The notes under the pieces are model-generated. The model saw nothing but the letters and a program-made list of their open reading frames with translations, did not search any database and had not been told where the DNA came from. 39,908 nt of DNA from Kofleriaceae bacterium (GTDB lineage Bacteria > Myxococcota_A > Polyangia > Haliangiales > Haliangiaceae): positions 1 to 39,908 of the forward strand of contig JALHPV010000028.1 of the NCBI GenBank assembly GCA_022842285.1. The letters run 5' to 3'. Below are positions 13,883 to 38,911 of the stretch, one piece after another. The translations under genes were made by a program, and so were the position numbers. How positions within the stretch are numbered: the stretch's first letter is position 1; the number at the start of each line of letters is the position of its first letter.

Positions 13883-14737
13883 ATGGTCCCGCGCATGACG
13901 GAGACTCTCGACTTCGCGAAGCACGCCGCCAGCGTGTACCTCTTGCCGCTGGGACTGCGCATCGTCCTCGCGCTCGCCCTGTTCTGGATCGGGCGGTTGC
14001 TCGCGCGTGGCCTCATGCGCGGCCTCGATCGCGGCCTCGCGAAGAGCGCGCTGGACATCTCGCTGCGCAAGTTTCTCAAGGACGTCATCTACGCGGTGAT
14101 GCTCGTCGCGATCGTGATCGCGTCGCTCGATCTGGTCGGCGTGAAGACGACGGCCGTGGTGGCGGTGCTCGGCGCGGCTGGTCTGGCGATCGGCCTCGCG
14201 CTGCAGAGCTCGCTCTCGAACTTCGCAGCCGGCGTGATGCTGATCGTGCTGCGACCCTACAAGGTCACCGACGTCGTGATGCTCGGTGGCAAGTACCTGG
14301 GGCGCGTGGATGCCATCAAGGTCTTCCATACGATCCTGATCACCGACGACAACCGCGAGGTCACGATCCCCAACAATCAGATCATCACCGGCGCGATCGA
14401 GAACTACACGGTGCTCGGGCGACGTCGCGTCGACCTGGTGGTCACGGTCAGCACGGCGCCCGCCGTAGTGGCCACGCCCCCCGCGCCGATGAGGCCTCTC
14501 GACCTCGCATCACTGAAGACGCTGCTCCAGGAAGTCGTGCTCGCCGATGACCGCGTGCTCGCCGCGCCGCCGCCCGCGATCGCGATCGCCGAGGCTACCG
14601 CCGCGTCGGTGAAGCTGGTCGTGCGGCCGTGGACGACGCACGAGACTCACTCGGCCGTGGCCGCGTCGACGATCGAGCGGGCTCGCGATGCCCTCACCGC
14701 GCAGGGGCACGAGACGTTCACCATCGCGCTGGCGTGA
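13883..14737 (+). CDS. MscS-type small mechanosensitive channel
   Basis: A membrane protein of 284 residues (ATG at 13883; the ATG at 13895 is also possible and no ribosome site decides). Hydrophobic helices lie at about 18-40 and 70-90. The pore helix TM3 follows, rich in Gly and Ala (AAVVAVLGAAGLAIGLALQSSLSNFAAG split over about 95-120), the hallmark of MscS. The beta domain follows with RPYKVTDVVMLGGKYLGRVDAI and the IPNNQIITGAIENYT block. It should release solutes on hypo-osmotic shock. It is divergent from the GON-domain lipoprotein, with 74 bp between starts, and its stop abuts the DUF423 stop with no bases between. Confidence 0.93.
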   Translation: MVPRMTETLDFAKHAASVYLLPLGLRIVLALALFWIGRLLARGLMRGLDRGLAKSALDISLRKFLKDVIYAVMLVAIVIASLDLVGVKTTAVVAVLGAAGLAIGLALQSSLSNFAAGVMLIVLRPYKVTDVVMLGGKYLGRVDAIKVFHTILITDDNREVTIPNNQIITGAIENYTVLGRRRVDLVVTVSTAPAVVATPPAPMRPLDLASLKTLLQEVVLADDRVLAAPPPAIAIAEATAASVKLVVRPWTTHETHSAVAASTIERARDALTAQGHETFTIALA

Positions 14738-15094
14738 CTAGCCGCGCCAGGCCGACCACGCGAGCCAGATCCAGCCCGCGAGGAAGGCGAGCCCACCGAT
14801 CGGCGTGATCGCTCCGAGCCCCTTCGTCCCCGTCAATGCGAGGGCATAGAGCGACCCGCTGAACACCACGATGCCGGCCAGGAACAGCCAGCCTGCCGTC
14901 GATGCGCCGCGCACCACGAGGGCGCCCGCGAGCACCATCGCGACCGCGTGAATCAGGTGATAACGCGCGCCGGTCTCGAAGATCTCCAGCGCACGCTGGT
15001 CGAGCCGGGCCCGCAGCGCATGGGCACCGAAGGCACCGGCAGCGACGGCGAGCGCGCCGTTGAGCGCCCCGAGGGCGACGAGGGGATTGCGCAT
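14738..15094 (-). CDS. DUF423 (YgdD/YwdK) small membrane protein
   Basis: A protein of 118 residues with four predicted membrane helices. The start has the family pattern ALGALNGALAVAAGAFGAHAL, followed by FETGARYHLIHAVAM and, near the end, TKGLGAITPIGGLAFLAGW. Length and motifs match DUF423 throughout. Function is not known. It follows rtcA with only 9 bp between, so it is probably the last gene of the rtcB-rtcA operon. Confidence 0.93.
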   Translation of the reverse strand: MRNPLVALGALNGALAVAAGAFGAHALRARLDQRALEIFETGARYHLIHAVAMVLAGALVVRGASTAGWLFLAGIVVFSGSLYALALTGTKGLGAITPIGGLAFLAGWIWLAWSAWRG

Positions 15095-25691: not shown

Positions 25692-26107
25692 TCACGGCGG
25701 GCAGGAGGCCTGGCCCACGTCCCACATGCCGTTCGTGCACGTGGCGGGCTGGATGCAGCAATCACCGTAGGTGCAAACCTGGCCCTCGGTCGAGCACGCA
25801 CCGGATGGCACCTCCTCGGGGCAGCCGTCCGTGCGCTTGGGGTCGCATTGCCACACGGGCTGCGCGAGCTCGGCGAGCATCTCCTCCGTAGGTGCCACGC
25901 CGCCGCAATACGACTGCGACGCGCACCGGCAGGTGCCTTCGGGGAAGGCGCAATTGGTGCCGTCGGCGGTGCAGGGCGCGCCCACGGCGACCTCGTCGTA
26001 GCTCGCCCCGCACGCGGCCGGGGTGGACGAGGACTGTGCGGTGTTGCTGGTGGGGGCGGGCGGGGGGCTGGCCCCACAGGCCGCGAGGATCAGGAGAAGG
26101 GAGTATT

Positions 26108-29558: not shown

Positions 29559-30803
29559 TCACGGCAAGTCGCGCGTGGCGATGTTGAGCGTCATCACGCC
29601 TGCCCGAAAGCCCTGTGGCGTTCTGTCCGGGAGAAAGTAGTTCTGAGGAACGTTCTGATCGTCAAAGCCGACGTAGAGCATCAACCGCCCGTTGCCGTTC
29701 GCCGCGACATCTGCTCCCGTCAGCAGCCCGAGCCGCTCGCCGGCGCGCGGGGCGCCCTCCGCCCACTGGAGGTCGCGCGCGCGGTTGTAGTTGACGCTCC
29801 ACGTGATGCCATCGGCAGACTCGGCGCGATACACGCCGACCATGTTGTTGAACTCGATCGGCTGATTGTCGTTTTCGCCCGGCAGGTCGCTCTGTAGCCA
29901 CAGCTCCCAGCGGCAGTGCACGGCGTCGTAGATCACCGACGGCTGGCCGCCGCCGCTCGTCGGGGTGATCTGCTCGCGCAGGAGCGAACGCACGGGCGCT
30001 TCCACCGTCGTCCAGTGGATGCCGTCGGACGAGGTCGAGTGGCCGATGCCATACGCCTGCACCGTCTCGCAGCTCGGCCCGCTGCACGCAAAGCTCGAGT
30101 AGAAGAGGTGATAGATGCCGTCGACGAGCACGACCTCCGGATCCGCGACGATGGCGCCGACCGACGCCGGATAGACAGCCCGGCCCGTCAGCACCAGCCC
30201 ATCCTCGTCGTAGTCGGTCTCGGTGTTCGCCACGCGCGTGAACGTGATGCCGTCGGCGGAGATGGCCGCACCGATCGCGTAGTTCTGAAACGTGTAGCCC
30301 GGGAACGGGAACACCTCGCGCGAGCCCGAGTAGTAGAGGATGTACTTGCGGTCCGCAGGGGCGTTCGGGTTGTAGACGATCGACGGCGTCTCGCTGTGCG
30401 TGTGGTCCCACGCATCGACATCAGGATTCGCCGTGAACACCGGATCGTCGACGTACGACCACGCGGTCTTGTCGGGACTCACCGCCATGCGGATGACCTG
30501 CACGATGTCGGGCGCATTGAACGTCGTGCCGTGCGCGGCCATCCAGTACGCCTCCCACCGCTGCTCGCCTTCGTCCCAGCGCACGTCGGGGTCAGACATC
30601 GAGGTGTCCTCCTTGCCGTCGCTGAACGTAGAGCCGGCGCGCAGCCGTGGATTGCCGTCGCGGGCGACGAACTGGCCGAAGGCGGGGATCGCGGAGCATT
30701 CGGACGGGGCATCGATGTCGCCGTCGACGCCCGGAGCATCCGGGGCGGAGCCAGCATCGTCGCCGCACGCCACGAGGAGGGACAAGATGAGGGCGCGACG
30801 CAT
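29559..30803 (-). CDS. Lipoprotein with five-bladed beta-propeller fold (GH43/GH32-like)
   Basis: A protein of 414 residues. The signal ends at Cys13 (LLVAC) and is followed by an Asp/Ala/Pro linker to about residue 38. The body shows repeated motifs of glycosidase-type propellers: MSDPDVRWDEGEQRWEAYW, PSIVYNP with YILYYSGS, ADPEVVLVDGIYHLFYSS, SSDGIHWT and PSVIYDAVHCRWELW. DP plus YxLFYS blocks are typical of GH43, GH32 and GH130 families. I cannot confirm the three catalytic acids, so activity is uncertain; it may be a binding protein. It is divergent from the glycosyltransferase gene with 45 bp between starts, and lies 31 bp upstream of the zinc-knuckle gene in the same direction. Confidence 0.72.
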   Translation of the reverse strand: MRRALILSLLVACGDDAGSAPDAPGVDGDIDAPSECSAIPAFGQFVARDGNPRLRAGSTFSDGKEDTSMSDPDVRWDEGEQRWEAYWMAAHGTTFNAPDIVQVIRMAVSPDKTAWSYVDDPVFTANPDVDAWDHTHSETPSIVYNPNAPADRKYILYYSGSREVFPFPGYTFQNYAIGAAISADGITFTRVANTETDYDEDGLVLTGRAVYPASVGAIVADPEVVLVDGIYHLFYSSFACSGPSCETVQAYGIGHSTSSDGIHWTTVEAPVRSLLREQITPTSGGGQPSVIYDAVHCRWELWLQSDLPGENDNQPIEFNNMVGVYRAESADGITWSVNYNRARDLQWAEGAPRAGERLGLLTGADVAANGNGRLMLYVGFDDQNVPQNYFLPDRTPQGFRAGVMTLNIATRDLP

Positions 30804-30848
30804 GCTCCCGCGAGTGTAGACCGCCCACGACAGTGCTACCTAGTCAGC

Positions 30849-32105
30849 GTGAAGTTGCTCGTGGCCACCGTGCCGCTGACGGGCCACGTCCAGCCGATGC
30901 GTCTGGTCGTCGCCGAGCTCGTCGCGCGCGGCCACGATGTCATCTGGTACGCGGCGACCAAGTTCGGACCACGCATCACCGCCACCGGGGCGCGCTTCGT
31001 CCCCATGAGCCCTGCGGTCGATTGGGACGATGCGGACGTCGAGACTGCGCTGCCGGCCCTCCGTGGCAAGCGTGGCCTCTCCCGCGTCAAGGCGCAGCTG
31101 CGCGCCATGTTCATCGAGCCGATGGTCCAGCAGCTCCGCGAGCTCGAGGCCATCGTCGACCGCGAGCAGCCCGTCGCCATCCTCGCCGACCAGGCCCACC
31201 TCGGCGCGGCCCTCCTCGCCGAGACTCGCCCCCTCAAGTGGTTCGGCCTGGGCATCAGCGCACTCGTCATCCCGAGCATCGACGTCGCGCCCTTCGGGTC
31301 CGCGCTCCCCTATCTCCCCGGCGATCCGGGCCGCAAGCGCAACAAGCTCCTCTACTGGATCATCCACCAGAAGCTCTTCGGCGGCATCACGCGCCTCTAC
31401 CGCGAGCAGCGCGTCGCCGCCGGTCTCCCCGAGGGCGAGGGCACCTACTTCGACGTCTTCGCGCGCGATCTCTACCTCCAACCCACCATCGAATCCTTCG
31501 AGTACCCGCGCACCGATCTGCCCGCCCACGTCCGCTTCATCGGTCCTCTCGTCCCCCCGCCATCCACGACCGATCTCCCCGCCTGGTGGGCCGACATCGC
31601 GTCGTCCGACCGTCCGATCGTCCTCGTCACCCAGGGCACCCTCGCCACCAACCCGCGCGAGCTGATCCTCCCAACCCTGACCGCGCTCGCCAACGAGCCC
31701 GTCCTCGTCATCGCCACGATCGACCCCGCCCTCGTCCCCGATCCGCCTGCCAACGCGCGCCTCGCCCCCTTCATCCCCTACGCCTCCCTCCTCCCCCACG
31801 TCGCGGCCATGATCACCAACGGCGGCTACGGTGGCGTCCAGATGGCCCTCGCCGCAGGCGTCCCCCTGATCGTGGCCGGCGGTAGCGAGGAGAAGCCCGA
31901 GATCGCCCGTCGGGTCGCATGGACGGGGGCCGGCCTCGATTTGCGCACGGGCCGCCCCCGCAAGGGCAAGCTCCGCAAGGCGGTCCGCAAGCTCCTCGCT
32001 GAACCCGGTTTTCGTGAGTCTGCACGAAGACTTGCGACCGAGATGGCCGCCCATGACGCCCCGCGGGAGGCAGCCGACGCGATCGAAATGGGCCTGGCCC
32101 ATTAA
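30849..32105 (+). CDS. UGT/MGT family glycosyltransferase
   Basis: A GT1-type glycosyltransferase of 418 residues with the GT-B fold. The N-terminus, LLVATVPLTGHVQPMRLVVAEL, has the acceptor-side signature. The C-terminal half has IVLVTQGTLATNPREL, then FIPYASLLPHVAAMITNGGYGGVQMALAAGVPLIVAGG, the sugar-nucleotide-binding block. Such enzymes glycosylate small lipophilic products such as macrolides, sterols or carotenoids. The start is GTG at 30849, without a clear ribosome site. The final codons and the stop lie inside the first copy of a palindromic repeat, so the last residues (MGLAH) are donated by repeat DNA. No biosynthetic cluster is nearby, so the acceptor is unknown. Confidence 0.92.
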   Translation: MKLLVATVPLTGHVQPMRLVVAELVARGHDVIWYAATKFGPRITATGARFVPMSPAVDWDDADVETALPALRGKRGLSRVKAQLRAMFIEPMVQQLRELEAIVDREQPVAILADQAHLGAALLAETRPLKWFGLGISALVIPSIDVAPFGSALPYLPGDPGRKRNKLLYWIIHQKLFGGITRLYREQRVAAGLPEGEGTYFDVFARDLYLQPTIESFEYPRTDLPAHVRFIGPLVPPPSTTDLPAWWADIASSDRPIVLVTQGTLATNPRELILPTLTALANEPVLVIATIDPALVPDPPANARLAPFIPYASLLPHVAAMITNGGYGGVQMALAAGVPLIVAGGSEEKPEIARRVAWTGAGLDLRTGRPRKGKLRKAVRKLLAEPGFRESARRLATEMAAHDAPREAADAIEMGLAH

Positions 32106-32213
32106 GCTGCGCCTTAAGCTGCGCCCCCGCGGGCGGGGGCCTGGCCCATTTAACCGGCGAGGGGGCCTGGCCCATTTCGCTGCGCCCCCCCCCGGAGGGG
32201 GCCTGGCCCATTT
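32087..32213. repeat. Array of G/C-rich palindromic repeats at the 3' end of the glycosyltransferase gene
   Basis: Three exact copies of gggggcctggcccattt start at 32135, 32161 and 32197. A fourth, variant copy at 32087-32103 is a perfect palindrome (aatgggcc-t-ggcccatt) that includes the stop codon of the preceding gene. Between copies lie ctgcgcc blocks and hairpins such as gcccccgc/gcgggggc (32123-32140) and gccccc/gggggc (32184-32202). Spacing is irregular (26 and 36 bp between exact copies). The array could act as a terminator cluster, a REP-like element or both. The remaining bases up to 32245 show nothing else. Confidence 0.85.
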
Positions 32214-32245
32214 AATTGATCGGGATTGCGGCCGATTCGGACACC

Positions 32246-33310
32246 GTGATCAGCTGGCTCCGTTCCTTGTTCCGGCGCTCGGCGGCGCCCCCGCCTCCCG
32301 AGGCCTATGTGCCGCGGGCGCGCAAGCGCAAGTCCGAGGTCGGGGCCAAGGGCACGCCCGCACCGCCGATGCGGATGGTGTCGAAGCTCGGGGCCGACCC
32401 GTCGATGACCGAGGTGCTGTCCGAGGTCATCGAGCAACTCGGGGGCCCGCAGGTCGAGCTGGACCGCGAGCAGTGGGCGGGCCTGGCCATGCGCATCGTC
32501 GGGCTGGCGGATACCGTGCCGCCGCCGTCGTTTCCGCGCATCGCGTCGGAGATCGTCGAGGTGGCGCGAGATCCCGATGTGGACGTGAACCAGCTGGTCG
32601 GGCTCGTGCAGCGGGATGCGGCCATCGCCGCGACGCTGCTCCGGGTCGCGAACTCGGTGGCGTTCTCGCCGGCGATCCCGATCACGAACTTGCGCAGCGC
32701 GATCCAGATGATGGGGATCCAGCTGGTGATCGAGGTGGCCCTCGGGGCGAGTGCGCGGGCGTACTACGAGGTGGCGAGCAAGGCCGAGCTCGCGCTGTTT
32801 CCGGGGCTGTGGCAGTCGATGTTCGAGGAGGCGATGGCGAACGCGTTCACGTGCGGACGCGTGGCGCTGGACGTGCCGACGGGTCGGCCCGAGCGGGCCC
32901 TCGTGGCGGGGTTGCTCGCGGATGTCGGGCGGCCAATCGCCCTGCGCATCATGGCGCGGCTCGTGCGGGAGGGGATGCCGATGCCGGCGATCGAGATCGT
33001 GCATGCGACGCTGGACGAGGTCGCGGCGCGGATCGGCGAAGAGGCGCTGCGCAAGATGGAGTTGCCGCCCGAGCTGCTCGAGGGGTGCATTCCGACGGGC
33101 GAGACGCCGACGGCGGACTCGATGATCGCGCGGCTGGTGTCGGCGGTGGCTGCGATCCAGCGCCGGAGCCCACGCATCTGGGGCAACGCGAGCGACGTCC
33201 GGGCCGCGGCCGAGCAGATGAAGCTGTCGCCGCACCTGGTTCGCACGCTGTTTGCGCAACGCGAGCAGTACATGATGCAAGCGAAGGGGATGTTCGGCAC
33301 GATGCGCTGA
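32246..33310 (+). CDS. HDOD domain protein
   Basis: A protein of 354 residues from the GTG at 32246 (MISWLRSLFRR). The frame is open further upstream to a TTG at 32216, but that would begin beside the repeat array. After a basic, Pro-rich N-terminus, an HDOD domain spans about 85-290: PSFPRIASEIVEVARDPDVDV, then LVQRDAAIAATLLRVANSVAF, LRSAIQMMGIQLVIEVAL and GLLADVGRPIALRIM. HDOD domains are degenerate relatives of HD hydrolases and usually act in signalling rather than catalysis. There is no EAL or GGDEF domain here. The next gene starts 1 bp after the stop. Confidence 0.87.
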   Translation: MISWLRSLFRRSAAPPPPEAYVPRARKRKSEVGAKGTPAPPMRMVSKLGADPSMTEVLSEVIEQLGGPQVELDREQWAGLAMRIVGLADTVPPPSFPRIASEIVEVARDPDVDVNQLVGLVQRDAAIAATLLRVANSVAFSPAIPITNLRSAIQMMGIQLVIEVALGASARAYYEVASKAELALFPGLWQSMFEEAMANAFTCGRVALDVPTGRPERALVAGLLADVGRPIALRIMARLVREGMPMPAIEIVHATLDEVAARIGEEALRKMELPPELLEGCIPTGETPTADSMIARLVSAVAAIQRRSPRIWGNASDVRAAAEQMKLSPHLVRTLFAQREQYMMQAKGMFGTMR

Positions 33311-34158: not shown

Positions 34159-36099
34159 TCACGACGGAGAGCGGCGGCGCACCAGGCCAACAGCGAGCTC
34201 GAGGAGCAGCGAGGGCTCGACGGGCTTTGTCAGGTGCGCGTCGAACCCAGCGGCGAGGGCGCGCTGGCGGTCCTCGTCGCGCGCATAGGCCGTGAGCGCG
34301 AGCGCCGGCACGGCCGGCCTGTTCGGTAGCTCCCGCACCCGTGCGATCACCGAGTAGCCGTCCTCGCCGGGCAAGCCGATATCCGAGACCAGCAGATCGG
34401 GGGTGGCGGCCTCGAGGGCCGCGATCGCTTCGTCGCCCGTCCCCGCCAGCATCACGATGGCCCCCGCGCGGCTGAACAGCGTCTCGATGAGCTCGCGCGT
34501 ATCGGGTTCGTCCTCGAGGAGCAGGATCGTGAGGCCCCGCAGCTCGAGGGGCGGTTGCGGATCCAGCGCCTTCGCCGGCCGCGGCGGGGTGGCCTCGCGC
34601 GCGATCGCCACGGGAATGCGCACGGTGAACGTCGCGCCGCGGTCCTCTCCGTCGCTCGCCGCCGTCACCGTGCCGCCATGCATCTCGACGAGCTCGCGCA
34701 CGATCGAGAGTCCCAGCCCGAGCCCCTTCGCCCGCCGCGTCGTCGCGCGCTCCTCCTGACCGAAGCGATCGAAGACGCGCGGCAAGAACGCGGACGAGAT
34801 GCCCTTCCCGGTATCGGCGACGGAGAGCTCGACCATGTCGCTCACGACCCGCAAGCTCACCCGGACGCGTCCGCCCGCAGGCGTGAACTTCACCGCGTTC
34901 GTCAGCAGATTGATCACGATCTGCTGGAGGCGCGCGGCATCACCGATCACGCGGGTGCCACTCGCGAGCTCCGACTCGAGGCCGATCTCCTTCGCGAGCG
35001 CCGCGGGGCGTACGCTGTCGAGCGCCGCTTCCACGATGGGCCGCAGTACGACCCGGGCCATCTCCAGGTGAAGCTTGCCGGAGATGATGCGGGAGACATC
35101 GAGCAGGTCCTCGATGAGCTGCGCCTGCGCCCGGGCATTGCGCTCGATCGTCTCCAGCGCCTTCGCGTGCTTCTCGGCGGACAACGACTCCGAGCGGAGG
35201 AGCTGCACCCAGCCGAGCATCGCGGACAGGGGCGTTCGCAGCTCGTGAGACACCACGGCGAGGAAGTTGTCACGCGTGCGACTCGCGTCCTCGGCCTGCT
35301 GGCGGGCAATCTGCTCGTCGGCGAGCGCCTTCGCCACGGCCGCCGCGGCCGCCTTCTGCTCGGTGGTGTTCTGGAACACGAGCGCCACCAGCCGCTGACC
35401 GGGCTCGCCGATCCGGTGCGCGTGCACGTCGAACCACCGATTCATCGCCGGCTCGTAGTTCTCCACGCGGATCGCCTCTCCGGTCGCGGCCACCCGACCG
35501 TAGATGCGCGCCCAGTCACCTTCGAGGTTCGGGACCAGCTCGCGAATCGTCTTGCCGACGGGACTCACGAGGCCGGTCTGCTCCTCGAACGCGTGGTTCG
35601 CCTCGACGAAGCGATAGTCGACGTACTCGCCGGCCTCGTTCTGGATCATGTGGATGATGCAGAAGCTCTGATCGATCGCGCCGAGGACGTTGCGGTACCT
35701 CGTCTCCGCCTCGTCGCGCAGCTTCTTCTCGCGCATGTAGTCGGTGAGCTCGTGGCCCTGGTGCAGGATGCCGATCACCGCGCCGCTCTCGTCGCGGATC
35801 GGCTGCATGATGAAGTCGACGTACAGCTCGACCCCCACGCCATCGCGCAGCAACGTCACCGGCAGCCCACGCCCGCGAAACGGCTCGCCCGTCGCGGTCA
35901 CTTGATCGAGCAGGGTGACGAAGCCCTGATCGACGATCTCGGGCAGGGCCTCGGCGATGGGCTTGCCGATGATCTCGCGATGTCCGATGAGCTGGTAGAA
36001 CGCCGCGTTCGCCAGCTCGAAGACATGGTCCGTCCCGCGGGAATACGCGAAGAAGCCCGGCGCCTGCTGGAGCAGCTCGAAGGTGGAGAGCTTGTTCAT
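34159..36099 (-). CDS. Hybrid sensor: PAS-PAS-histidine kinase-receiver (second of pair)
   Basis: A cytoplasmic protein of 646 residues without membrane helices. Two PAS domains lie at about 5-130 and 140-260; the first begins ELLQQAPGFFAYSRG. The HisKA domain has phospho-accepting His285 in SHELRTPLSAM. The ATPase domain follows, with NLLTNAVKFTPAGG and DTGKGI. The receiver at about 525-640 has acidic residues in LLLEDEPDTRE and phosphorylated Asp573 in SDIGLPGEDG. The start overlaps the stop of its paralogue (ATGA at 36096-36099), so the two are translationally coupled. The signal and the output are unknown, as no DNA-binding domain is attached. Confidence 0.94.
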   Translation of the reverse strand: MNKLSTFELLQQAPGFFAYSRGTDHVFELANAAFYQLIGHREIIGKPIAEALPEIVDQGFVTLLDQVTATGEPFRGRGLPVTLLRDGVGVELYVDFIMQPIRDESGAVIGILHQGHELTDYMREKKLRDEAETRYRNVLGAIDQSFCIIHMIQNEAGEYVDYRFVEANHAFEEQTGLVSPVGKTIRELVPNLEGDWARIYGRVAATGEAIRVENYEPAMNRWFDVHAHRIGEPGQRLVALVFQNTTEQKAAAAAVAKALADEQIARQQAEDASRTRDNFLAVVSHELRTPLSAMLGWVQLLRSESLSAEKHAKALETIERNARAQAQLIEDLLDVSRIISGKLHLEMARVVLRPIVEAALDSVRPAALAKEIGLESELASGTRVIGDAARLQQIVINLLTNAVKFTPAGGRVRVSLRVVSDMVELSVADTGKGISSAFLPRVFDRFGQEERATTRRAKGLGLGLSIVRELVEMHGGTVTAASDGEDRGATFTVRIPVAIAREATPPRPAKALDPQPPLELRGLTILLLEDEPDTRELIETLFSRAGAIVMLAGTGDEAIAALEAATPDLLVSDIGLPGEDGYSVIARVRELPNRPAVPALALTAYARDEDRQRALAAGFDAHLTKPVEPSLLLELAVGLVRRRSPS

Positions 36100-38057
36100 C
36101 GGAGCTTGCGGCGGGCGAAGGACGCGGCCACCGCGAGGAGCTCGACGGGCTCCACGGGCTTCGTGAGGTGGTTGTCGAAGCCGGCGTGCAGCGCCCGCGC
36201 GCGATCCTCGACCCGCGCGTACGCCGTCAACGCCACCGCCGGGACGGCCCCGCCCGCATCACGGGGCAACGCCCGCACCTTCGAGATGAGCGAGAAGCCA
36301 TCCTCGCCGGGCATGCCGATGTCTGACAGCAGGAGGTCCGGGACGCGCTTCCTCACCGCCGCGAGCGCCTCGGCCGCCGAGCTGACGGCCGTGACGTTCG
36401 CCTTGCAGCGCTCGAACAGCTCGCCGAGCATCTCGCGCGTATCCGGATCGTCATCGACGACAAGCACGTGGAGGCCCTCGAGATCCGGTGGACAGGTGAG
36501 CTGCTGCTGGAAGGTGAGCAGCGCCGGCTCGACCGTCCGGGCTAGCCGCGACGGCGCAGGCTCCCGCGAGCGCGATGCCGAGATGGGAAGCCGAACCTTG
36601 AAGGTCGCACCGTGCCCGACGCCGTCACTCGCCACGCTCACCGTACCGCCGTGAATCCCGACGAGCTCGCGCACGATGGACAGCCCGAGGCCGAGCCCCC
36701 CGCTGCTGCGCGTCGTCGCGCCCTCGGCCTGGCGGAAGCGGTCGAACACATGAGGCAGGAAGTCGGGGGCGATGCCCTTGCCGCTGTCGGAGACGGCCAG
36801 CTCCACTGCGGATTCGTCGAGCCGCAGGACGACCTGTACGTGACCTCCGCGCGGCGTGAACTTCACCGCGTTCGACACGAGGTTCCACACGATCTGCTGC
36901 AGGCGCGCCGCGTCGCCCAAGACGATCGCGTCGGTAGCGAGCATCGGCTGGATCCGGACATCGCGCGCGAGCGCCGCCGGCTGCACGGTCTCGAGCGCGG
37001 CCTCGACGATGGGGCGCATCTCGACGGGCATCACCTCGATGCGAAGCTGGCCCGCGATCACGCGGCTGACGTCGAGGAGGTCCTCGATGAGCTGGGCCTG
37101 GGCGCGCGCGTTGCGCTCGATGGTCTCCAGGGCCTTCGCCTGCTTCTCGGGAGGCAGCGACTCGGTGCGCAGGAGCTGGACCCACCCGAGCATCGCCGTC
37201 AACGGAGTGCGGAGCTCGTGGCTCACGATCGCGAGAAACTCGTCGCGCGTCCGTCCCGCTTCTTCGGCGGCGCGGCGGGCGAGCTTCTCGTCGGCGAGCG
37301 CGCGGGCGGTCTCCGCCTCGGCCTGCTTGCGCAGCGTCACATCCTTGAAGACCAGGGCGACGAGCTTCTTCGCCGGCTCGCCGACGCGGTGCGCGTTCAC
37401 CTCGAACCAGCGCTGCATCGCCGGGGCGTGATTCTCGAAGCGCTTCGCGACGCCCGTGTCCGCGACCTCGCCGTAGATGCGGAACCACGACTCGTCGAGG
37501 TCGGGCACCATCTCGAGGGCCGTCTTGCCCACGGCGTTCACGAGCCCGGTGTGCTGTTCGAAGGCCACGTTGGCCTCGAGGAAGCGGTAGTCGATCGTCT
37601 GGCCACTCGCGTCGTGGAGCATCTGCATCACGCAGAAGCCATCGTCGATCGCCGAGAACAGCATGCGGTAGCGCGACTCGGCGCGGACCATGTTCGTCAC
37701 CTCGTGCCCCTGGACGAGGATGGCGAACGGCTTGCCGTCGGGATCGCGGATCGGCTGGTAGATGAAGTCGAGGATCGCCTCGTCGGGGGCAGCCCCCTGG
37801 GTGCGCTGGAGCGTGATCGGAACCGCCGTGCCGATGTAGGGCTCGCCCGTCGCGTAGACGCGGTCGAGCAGCTCGTAGAACCCCTGGCCCGCGATCTCGG
37901 GGAGCGCTTCGCGGATGGTCTTCCCGATCACGTCGCGATGCCCCACGAGGGTGCGATACGCCTGGTTGGCGACGGCAAACACGTGCTCCGGGCCGCGCAG
38001 GAGGGCGACGAAGCCCGGTGCCTGCTGCAGCGCCTCGAGCTCGAGGGTGGTGGTCAC
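36096..38057 (-). CDS. Hybrid sensor: PAS-PAS-histidine kinase-receiver (first of pair)
   Basis: A cytoplasmic protein of 653 residues that has the same order of domains as the following gene and is clearly its paralogue: the first PAS begins ALQQAPGFVALLRG, the second contains YRFLEANVAFEQHTGLV. Phospho-accepting His280 is in SHELRTPLTAM; the ATPase motifs are NLVSNAVKFTPRGG and DSGKGI. The receiver has Asp579 in SDIGMPGEDG. I chose the GTG at 38057, which overlaps the stop of the DUF3108 gene; the longer open frame up to 38861 is a shadow of that gene. Conserved motifs of both kinases are intact, so neither is a pseudogene. Confidence 0.93.
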   Translation of the reverse strand: MTTTLELEALQQAPGFVALLRGPEHVFAVANQAYRTLVGHRDVIGKTIREALPEIAGQGFYELLDRVYATGEPYIGTAVPITLQRTQGAAPDEAILDFIYQPIRDPDGKPFAILVQGHEVTNMVRAESRYRMLFSAIDDGFCVMQMLHDASGQTIDYRFLEANVAFEQHTGLVNAVGKTALEMVPDLDESWFRIYGEVADTGVAKRFENHAPAMQRWFEVNAHRVGEPAKKLVALVFKDVTLRKQAEAETARALADEKLARRAAEEAGRTRDEFLAIVSHELRTPLTAMLGWVQLLRTESLPPEKQAKALETIERNARAQAQLIEDLLDVSRVIAGQLRIEVMPVEMRPIVEAALETVQPAALARDVRIQPMLATDAIVLGDAARLQQIVWNLVSNAVKFTPRGGHVQVVLRLDESAVELAVSDSGKGIAPDFLPHVFDRFRQAEGATTRSSGGLGLGLSIVRELVGIHGGTVSVASDGVGHGATFKVRLPISASRSREPAPSRLARTVEPALLTFQQQLTCPPDLEGLHVLVVDDDPDTREMLGELFERCKANVTAVSSAAEALAAVRKRVPDLLLSDIGMPGEDGFSLISKVRALPRDAGGAVPAVALTAYARVEDRARALHAGFDNHLTKPVEPVELLAVAASFARRKLR

Positions 38058-38911
38058 GGGCGAAGTCGCTGTCCGGTGCCTGGTTGGTAGTCGACGATCT
38101 CGAGCTTCACGTCTCCGTAGTCGGTGACGGCGGTGACGAGCAGCGGCACGCGGCCCGCGTCGTCGGAGACGAAGATGGTGAACTCGCGATCGGGGTTGTT
38201 CGTGTCCTTCGTGCCGTTGCGCAGCAGGCGGTAGCTCTGGCACTCGAACTCGAGGGCCGGGAGCTCGCCGAGCTCCGTCACGACCTTCTCCGTACCGACG
38301 AGCTTCGCGTCGATGTGCCACATGTAGAGGCTGCGCATCGACTCGATCGAGATGCGGGCGCCCGTGGCCGGCTCCCACGCGCGCAGCGCGACGAGGAACG
38401 AATTGAAGTCCCAGACGTCGGTCTGCGATGTCGTCTGCGGATCGACCTTCGGCTCGCCGTCGCCGATCTGGAATGACACGGGGAAGGTCGCGCCGGTGCG
38501 CTTCGTGAAGTCGACGATCGTGTGCTCGGTGACCTCGTCCTTCGGATTCAGCTCGTCGACCTGGAAGCGCACGGAGCGGCCGGTCTGCACGTCGATCCAC
38601 GAGGAGAATTGATCGTCGACCTGGCTCACCATCGCGGCGAGCCCGCTCGTGGTGGCGCGCGATTGCACGATCACCGTCTGCTTGCCATCGACCTCGGAGA
38701 CATCGCCCACGCCGAACTGGAACACCGCCAGCTCGATGCCCTTCAGGGACAGGCGATAGGTCATCCTCTCGCCCGGCGTGACCAGGGGGGGACCGCCGAA
38801 CATGGCGGCGGCCTGGTCGACCGGTGCCTTCACCCCCTGTGGGGCCGCCGGACTGCTGCAACCCAATGATAAGACAAGGGCTCCCGCGATTCCGATCAAC
38901 GATCCGCGCAC
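38054..38911 (-). CDS. DUF3108 lipoprotein
   Basis: A protein of 285 residues with signal ending at Cys18 (LSLGC). The mature part fits DUF3108: early PGERMTYRLSLKGIELAVFQFGVG, then VDDQFSSWIDVQTGRSVRFQ, WDFNSFLVALRAW, and a C-terminal PLLVTAVTDYGDVKLEIVDY. The family has an outer-surface beta structure and no established function, though envelope roles have been suggested. The start is GTG at 38911. Its stop overlaps the start of the first hybrid kinase by four bases (38054-38057), so a lipoprotein heads a two-kinase operon. Confidence 0.88.
   Translation of the reverse strand: MRGSLIGIAGALVLSLGCSSPAAPQGVKAPVDQAAAMFGGPPLVTPGERMTYRLSLKGIELAVFQFGVGDVSEVDGKQTVIVQSRATTSGLAAMVSQVDDQFSSWIDVQTGRSVRFQVDELNPKDEVTEHTIVDFTKRTGATFPVSFQIGDGEPKVDPQTTSQTDVWDFNSFLVALRAWEPATGARISIESMRSLYMWHIDAKLVGTEKVVTELGELPALEFECQSYRLLRNGTKDTNNPDREFTIFVSDDAGRVPLLVTAVTDYGDVKLEIVDYQPGTGQRLRP

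Follow-up and report, generated by a model that had tools for sequence, protein, structure and literature searches.

The repeat array and the end of the glycosyltransferase gene

The window, as the whole 39,908-nt stretch of DNA analysed here is called, constitutes the whole of contig C28 of the host genome (7.9 Mb, 550 contigs, 97% complete). An array of short palindromes (32086–32213) lies in it at the junction of a glycosyltransferase gene and an HDOD-domain gene, with the following features:

30843–32105, plus strand: glycosyltransferase gene (EryCIII-like_C / UDPGT), whose last five codons and TAA are copy 1
32086–32104, plus strand: copy 1, the fullest palindrome (AAATGGGCCTGGCCCATTA), found by search, coding for MGLAH and overlapping the TAA; its DNA fold, taken alone, has z -3.2
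32102–32125, plus strand: TTAAGCTGCGCC, two tandem copies between copies 1 and 2, found by repeat search
32123–32140, plus strand: G/C hairpin GCCCCCG-CGGG-CGGGGGC before copy 2, read off the sequence
32135–32151, plus strand: copy 2, exact 17-mer, from the window search
32161–32177, plus strand: copy 3, exact 17-mer, from the window search
32184–32202, plus strand: G/C hairpin GCCCCC-N7-GGGGGC before copy 4, read off the sequence
32197–32213, plus strand: copy 4, exact 17-mer, from the window search; its DNA fold is at shuffle level (z about 0)
32216–33310, plus strand: HDOD-domain gene directly behind the array (HDOD 7e-29), starting at TTG 32216 or at the in-frame GTG 32246
32230–32242, plus strand: possible degenerate second palindrome GGCCG-AT-TCGGAC, a weak candidate (one relaxed match in the window)

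The first-pass annotation had described three exact 17-base copies and one variant at this place, and all four were recovered: GGGGGCCTGGCCCATTT occurs exactly as copies 2, 3 and 4, and with three mismatches at 32088–32104, within copy 1. At up to three mismatches GGGGGCCTGGCCCATTT matches the window six times, against 0.04 expected from shuffles; two of the six are copy 1 read on the reverse strand and a lone three-mismatch match at 25704. The copies share one orientation (++++) and are spaced by 47, 26 and 36 nt; Tandem Repeats Finder rates the array as less regular than those on contigs C99, C12 and C24 described below. Among the copies, the palindrome is fullest in copy 1 (AAATGGGCC-T-GGCCCATTA). 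The G/C hairpins said to lie between the copies are present, two in number, and both extend into the following copy. The candidate at 32230–32242 is of a kind that is intact beside some other arrays. An Rfam search gave no family match in the array and one sub-threshold match outside it.

The glycosyltransferase reading frame is open from 29916, homology to relatives spans its last ~417 residues, and the gene start at 30843 is approximate. Pfam matches on the 29916–32105 frame are EryCIII-like_C (4.2e-21) and UDPGT (3.5e-12). In this frame copy 1 reads ATG GGC CTG GCC CAT TAA, giving a protein that ends in ...IE-MGLAH-stop, and the TAA (32103–32105) overlaps the right arm of the palindrome; the claim that the first copy overlaps the last codons and stop of the gene thus holds. 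Comparison of this 3' end with relatives, which the first-pass annotation had proposed, covered homologues at eight loci (seven distinct, L047 and L085 being seemingly one sequence). Homology reaches about the same point in all of them; past it each relative's tail differs, and MGLAH ends none of the eight. The L085/L047 gene carries GGGCCAGGCTC, one mismatch from the core and lacking the A/T flank, shortly before its stop, which was taken as a chance resemblance. The glycosyltransferase and HDOD genes sit apart in relatives, none of which has both together. Neither result named in the first-pass annotation as refuting (a motif unique to this site, or an identical sequence at this place in related genomes with no copy variation) occurred; for the latter, the window junction itself offered no syntenic relative.

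Further along the window, on the minus strand (34159–38861), two neighbouring genes code for hybrid histidine kinases that have PAS and receiver domains.

A dispersed palindrome family at gene ends

The palindromes form a dispersed repeat family (family A), and the window array is one of about 17–20 sites. A genome-wide search, as suggested in the first-pass annotation, shows that the motif is not unique to the window: GGGCCTGGCCCATTT occurs in 34 exact copies on 10 contigs, for the most part in tandem arrays, against 0 matches of the reversed-pattern control. At up to one mismatch the 14-mer gives 81 matches (some palindromes being counted on both strands) versus 2 in the control, adding further arrays. 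The search covered 56 genomes: the host, 15 congeners, 14 further genomes from its family and 26 more distant ones. Besides the host, only G010 and G037 had the palindrome, one copy each; the 15 other genus members hold one copy in total.

The core, which varies little, is a perfect palindrome of odd length. The consensus, GGGCC-T-GGCCC-[A/T]TTT-C-[G/C], with no conservation left of GGG, was built from 69 of 86 copies found, the 17 without an ATT/TTT tail having been dropped beforehand; the loci were picked with patterns containing part of the tail, and its conservation is partly selected. Read on the minus strand, GAAA[T/A] precedes a GGGCC-A-GGCCC hairpin. This layout would correspond to a REP with a 5' guide in which GAAA replaces GTAG; GAAA[T/A], just 5' of the hairpin, could then be the guide of the C24 RAYT described below. 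In the consensus of the 69 copies no GT[AG]G head precedes the hairpin, GTAG standing beside isolated copies only.

Tandem Repeats Finder resolves the C99 array into 6.8 units of 24 bp, the C12 array into units of 23 bp (3.9 copies) and 15 bp (5.1 copies), and the C24 array into 5.2 units of 18 bp, although copy numbers of arrays may be misassembled. Since unit lengths are specific to the site, we infer that one or two copies were inserted and then duplicated locally. Mixed orientation occurs only in the C24:14.0-kb and C67 arrays; most arrays are head-to-tail.

The sites cluster at the 3' ends of genes, as called by a simple codon-score caller that was trained on seven window frames, with no annotation used. 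For 13 of 20 family A sites the nearest gene 3' end is no more than 30 nt away, as it is for 3.6% of random positions, and two single copies, kept in the denominator, lie inside genes. Palindromes abut the stop codon itself at C12, C24:23.1 kb, C119 and in the window; exceptions to the rule are C75, between divergent genes, and C67, which has no nearby gene end. Co-orientation with a gene ending within about 35 nt was seen at 11 of 14 sites in a hand count, to be read as weak. The same placement characterizes a second palindrome family of the host, family B (10/19 sites, background 4.7%), and the palindromes of two congeners described below, G005 (17/21, background 5.0%) and G010 (15/20, background 4.7%); for these three, only part of the listed sites was used, from 20 regions each, with the C87 locus added for family B, two of whose loci, at contig ends, yielded no site.

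Two family A sites could be compared with relatives, at roughly 65–78% DNA identity. At the C99 junction the host has seven units, spanning 178 nt, between the two genes of a conserved pair. In nine of 11 relatives fetched both genes could be located, with gaps of -1, -1, 2, 5, 5, 5, 11, 37 and 149 nt and no palindrome in any; the junction is thus short (-1 to 37 nt) in eight, and in the ninth 149 nt are palindrome-free. At C24, a conserved gene adjoining the RAYT gene described below has nearly the same terminal residues in relatives; of nine examined, none of the eight with a readable stop has a palindrome behind it. The C99 and C24 palindromes were likely inserted in the host lineage, loss elsewhere being formally possible.

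A RAYT transposase and its sisters

A profile search of the host genome gave three Y1_Tnp matches, at C24, C2 and C160. The first (C24:14293–14544; 22.3 bits, just below the family cut-off) is flanked by family A palindromes: an array at 13964–14152 upstream and a single copy at 14885 beyond, with the nearest palindromes inverted (14135–14149, minus; 14885–14898, plus). The encoded protein matches NCBIfam NF047646 with E 1e-10 and 41.7 bits, below the cut-off of 80, and scores 21.1 bits against a cut-off of 23 in the Pfam search. It contains an HUH motif (HIH, residues 60–62) and YIHANP beginning at Tyr 118; H60, H62, Y118, N122 and P123 are invariant in 17 homologues. Its structure model (pLDDT 87.4) has 4er8_A as the top Foldseek match (E 1e-7, TM 0.69 on target), a RAYT (REP transposase) solved bound to a REP; when sequences of solved structures were searched with the family profile, 4er8 alone matched (E 0.0087). 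The C24 gene encodes a divergent RAYT with a predicted TnpA-REP fold.

The C24 RAYT frame (L032:4258–6660) meets no stop after the 3' palindrome and continues for hundreds of codons on the strand opposite the conserved neighbour, as an open frame of 899 aa; the gene may be dead or damaged. The 216 aa that precede the palindrome gave no HTH match, and no RAYT relatives were found in viral contigs. Two sub-threshold Pfam matches of the RAYT were dismissed as chance. The Y1 genes at C2:13809 and C160:348 (L050, L051) share a ATTATTTGTCCAATAG-type stretch just upstream.

Short RAYT homologues of 206–225 aa are encoded by G010, G005, G003 and by a second host copy on C87. Together with the C24 RAYT these four make up one clade (support 98/95), the members of which have no C-terminal extension. 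Palindromes adjoin four of the five. Besides the C24 gene, the C87 RAYT adjoins an array of TGTCGCAGGGGTCGGACCCCTGCGACA, the G005 RAYT lies between GGGGTCCGACCCC palindromes, in direct orientation by the centre base, and the G010 RAYT adjoins GGGGCCAGGCCCC; the fifth, from G003, has imperfect inverted repeats. Counts over 16 genus members are uneven: GGGGTCGGACCCC occurs 100 times in the host, 64 in G005, 32 in G014, three in G007, twice in G010 and in none of the other eleven, and AAGGGGCCAGGCCCCT 28 times in G010, twice in G008 and in none of the other fourteen. Palindrome abundance goes along with the genome's own RAYT in the host, G005 and G010, but not in G014, which has 32 copies of a related core and in which the sole RAYT detected is a long-type fragment at a contig end, nor in G003, where the palindrome flanking the short RAYT was found once with a narrow search pattern. 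The idea that palindrome type tracks the RAYT tree was unsupported by tree comparison. In G005 (L123–L142) the GGGGTCGGACCCC palindromes form direct pairs at a near-fixed spacing of 38–40 nt; this unit of two palindromes differs from REPINs, in which the pairs are inverted.

Long RAYT relatives (309–333 aa) carry inverted repeats of GGGGAC type. In G010 the inverted repeat of a long RAYT, TTGACAAAC[A/G]TGACAGCGTCCCC, occurs 84 times at up to two mismatches, and in no other genus member; these repeats, often in inverted clusters with 66-nt spacing, form an amplified MITE-like family. The idea that short RAYTs alone amplify their flanks is refuted by these 84 copies of a long RAYT's TIR.

Origin of the array and relation to known REP systems

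In our view the window array quite probably consists of clustered REP-like elements that a RAYT dispersed and that were then multiplied in tandem. This reading follows from the dispersal of the palindromes, their near-absence from the rest of the genus, their clustering at stop codons, the RAYT gene flanked by the same palindrome, the palindrome-free C99 junction in relatives and the sister RAYTs beside genome-specific palindromes, and it upholds the suggestion in the first-pass annotation of a REP-like element that invaded or expanded at a gene end. The RAYT-family HUH tyrosine transposase encoded on C24, with the same palindrome on both sides, would most likely recognise the hairpin in single-stranded DNA and paste copies at new sites, mostly just behind stop codons; it is the putative mover of the palindromes. 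One copy would have landed on the last glycosyltransferase codons and now gives the final residues and the stop, and local tandem duplication, presumably by slippage, would have produced arrays with unit lengths varying by site. A palindrome on the stop codon may also alter translation of the upstream gene. REPs near stops reportedly affect translation termination, a finding attributed to Liang and co-workers (in 2015).

Part of the evidence would also suit spread by a different or lost transposase, with the C24 RAYT inserted into, or caught between, existing copies: this RAYT lacks a stop codon, G014 has many related-core copies and no short RAYT detected, and the host has other Y1 transposases (C2, C160, C87). 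This is nevertheless unlikely. Neither host palindrome core (family A or B) has a copy at the C2 or C160 locus, C87 stands beside its own, different palindrome, and inverted copies flanking the gene match the REPtron layout published in PMC2817692. Far less likely still is a role as intrinsic terminators, each a hairpin with a T tail, whose number would have risen because selection favoured tight termination. Here the first-pass annotation had offered a multiple terminator as its second option, and the sites behind stop codons, the CCC-WTTT tails and the 11 co-oriented sites in the hand count agree with it. The region 31900–32500, however, contains 0 terminator-like sites (0.2 in shuffles) when a G/C stem of at least 5 bp and a T run are required, copy 4 having a stem of 4 bp and the T tails being short; as RNA, the array (fold z -1.18) is not clearly more stable than shuffles. 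The C75 site between divergent genes, the inverted sites and the near-absence from 15 congeners also speak against termination.

A perfect odd palindrome with few variants is what a protein-binding site would look like, either an operator or a motif serving chromosome organisation; point mutations and local duplication would then have produced it, and no mobile element would have taken part. Such an origin is scarcely credible: the palindromes flank a RAYT, sister palindromes stand beside sister RAYTs, the C99 junction, filled in the host by a long repeat stretch, is short in relatives, and the placement is behind genes, not before them.

In the classic system (PMC2817692) a RAYT lies between two REPs that are inverted relative to each other and headed by GT(A/G)G; TnpA-REP groups 2 and 3 with their hairpins are treated in PMC8266576. 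The host palindromes resemble the REPs and REPtrons of these two sources in being short, GC-rich, intergenic, located at gene 3' ends, inverted around a RAYT and confined to one genome. They differ in having no GT[AG]G (GAAA[T/A] would lie on the same side), a shorter hairpin, a low copy number (34 exact) and mostly head-to-tail arrays. They are a REP variant, not a canonical one, lacking the GT[AG]G head and being mostly head-to-tail. Clusters of REPs at single sites, expanded in tandem, are likewise known as BIMEs and REPINs, but these alternate in orientation as a rule, and mixed orientation in the host is confined to the C24:14.0-kb and C67 arrays. PMC3733652 describes REPs near gene 3' ends as well as GTAG REPs from which flanking ORFs take a TAG stop; there too the REP end provides the gene's stop codon, but as TAG from the GTAG tag, whereas in the window a TAA comes from the T-rich palindrome tail, together with five residues.

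Among related transposases, TIRYTs and subclass 2.1 (PMC3733652, PMC6006769) are comparable to the longer genus homologues, which have inverted repeats of GGGGAC type, in one case amplified. The short clade with the C24 RAYT differs from them in the missing C-terminal extension and in the palindromes beside four of the five genes; TIRYTs are characterized by long TIRs and a C-terminal HTH, and the C24 RAYT has palindromes on both sides and no HTH match. For subclass 2.1, PMC6006769 reports no REPs found nearby. The same paper describes atypical non-GTAG structures for subclass 2.6 and class 3 Y1 transposases, which, compared with the present clade by description, are similar in their multi-copy non-GTAG hairpins beside a RAYT-like gene and, for 2.6, in a YIHxNP-type Tyr motif; 2.6 is mainly found in Bacteroidetes, and class 3 has a CnGA foot. 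A search of open-licence PMC papers gave no non-GTAG REP family beside the present RAYT clade and nothing relevant on myxobacterial REPs or palindromic repeats, and literal core sequences returned no title concerning bacterial repeats. A REP at a stop codon is thus already known.

It can be proposed, tentatively and at somewhat less than even confidence, that a short-RAYT clade without C-terminal extension, kin to long TIR-flanked RAYTs, became REP-makers, each amplifying its own non-GTAG palindrome at stop codons as head-to-tail arrays or fixed-distance direct pairs. If so, the short RAYTs would make up a REPtron subclass so far unrecognised and would make visible a stage linking TIRtrons, which are transposon-like, with REPtrons. 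The host itself shows REP-like elements lacking GT[AG]G next to RAYTs of a clade with long relatives similar to subclass 2.1, near which no REPs are reported. Private palindromes beside sister RAYTs offer a natural series for studying joint change of RAYT and hairpin, and the same series bears on stop-codon placement and on the turning of mobile palindromes into coding sequence.

Two minor observations concern the palindromes and RAYT genes at large. A second palindrome, TGTCCG-N-CGGACA, lies within 100 nt of 4/21, 4/21, 3/21 and 5/20 sites of four palindrome families, against an expectation of 0.004–0.035 per 225 nt, at loci including L031, L032, L042, L080 and L153; it is also found upstream of several RAYT genes. 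G042, a genome of the same class, encodes nine RAYT homologues, one of which has an in-frame stop.
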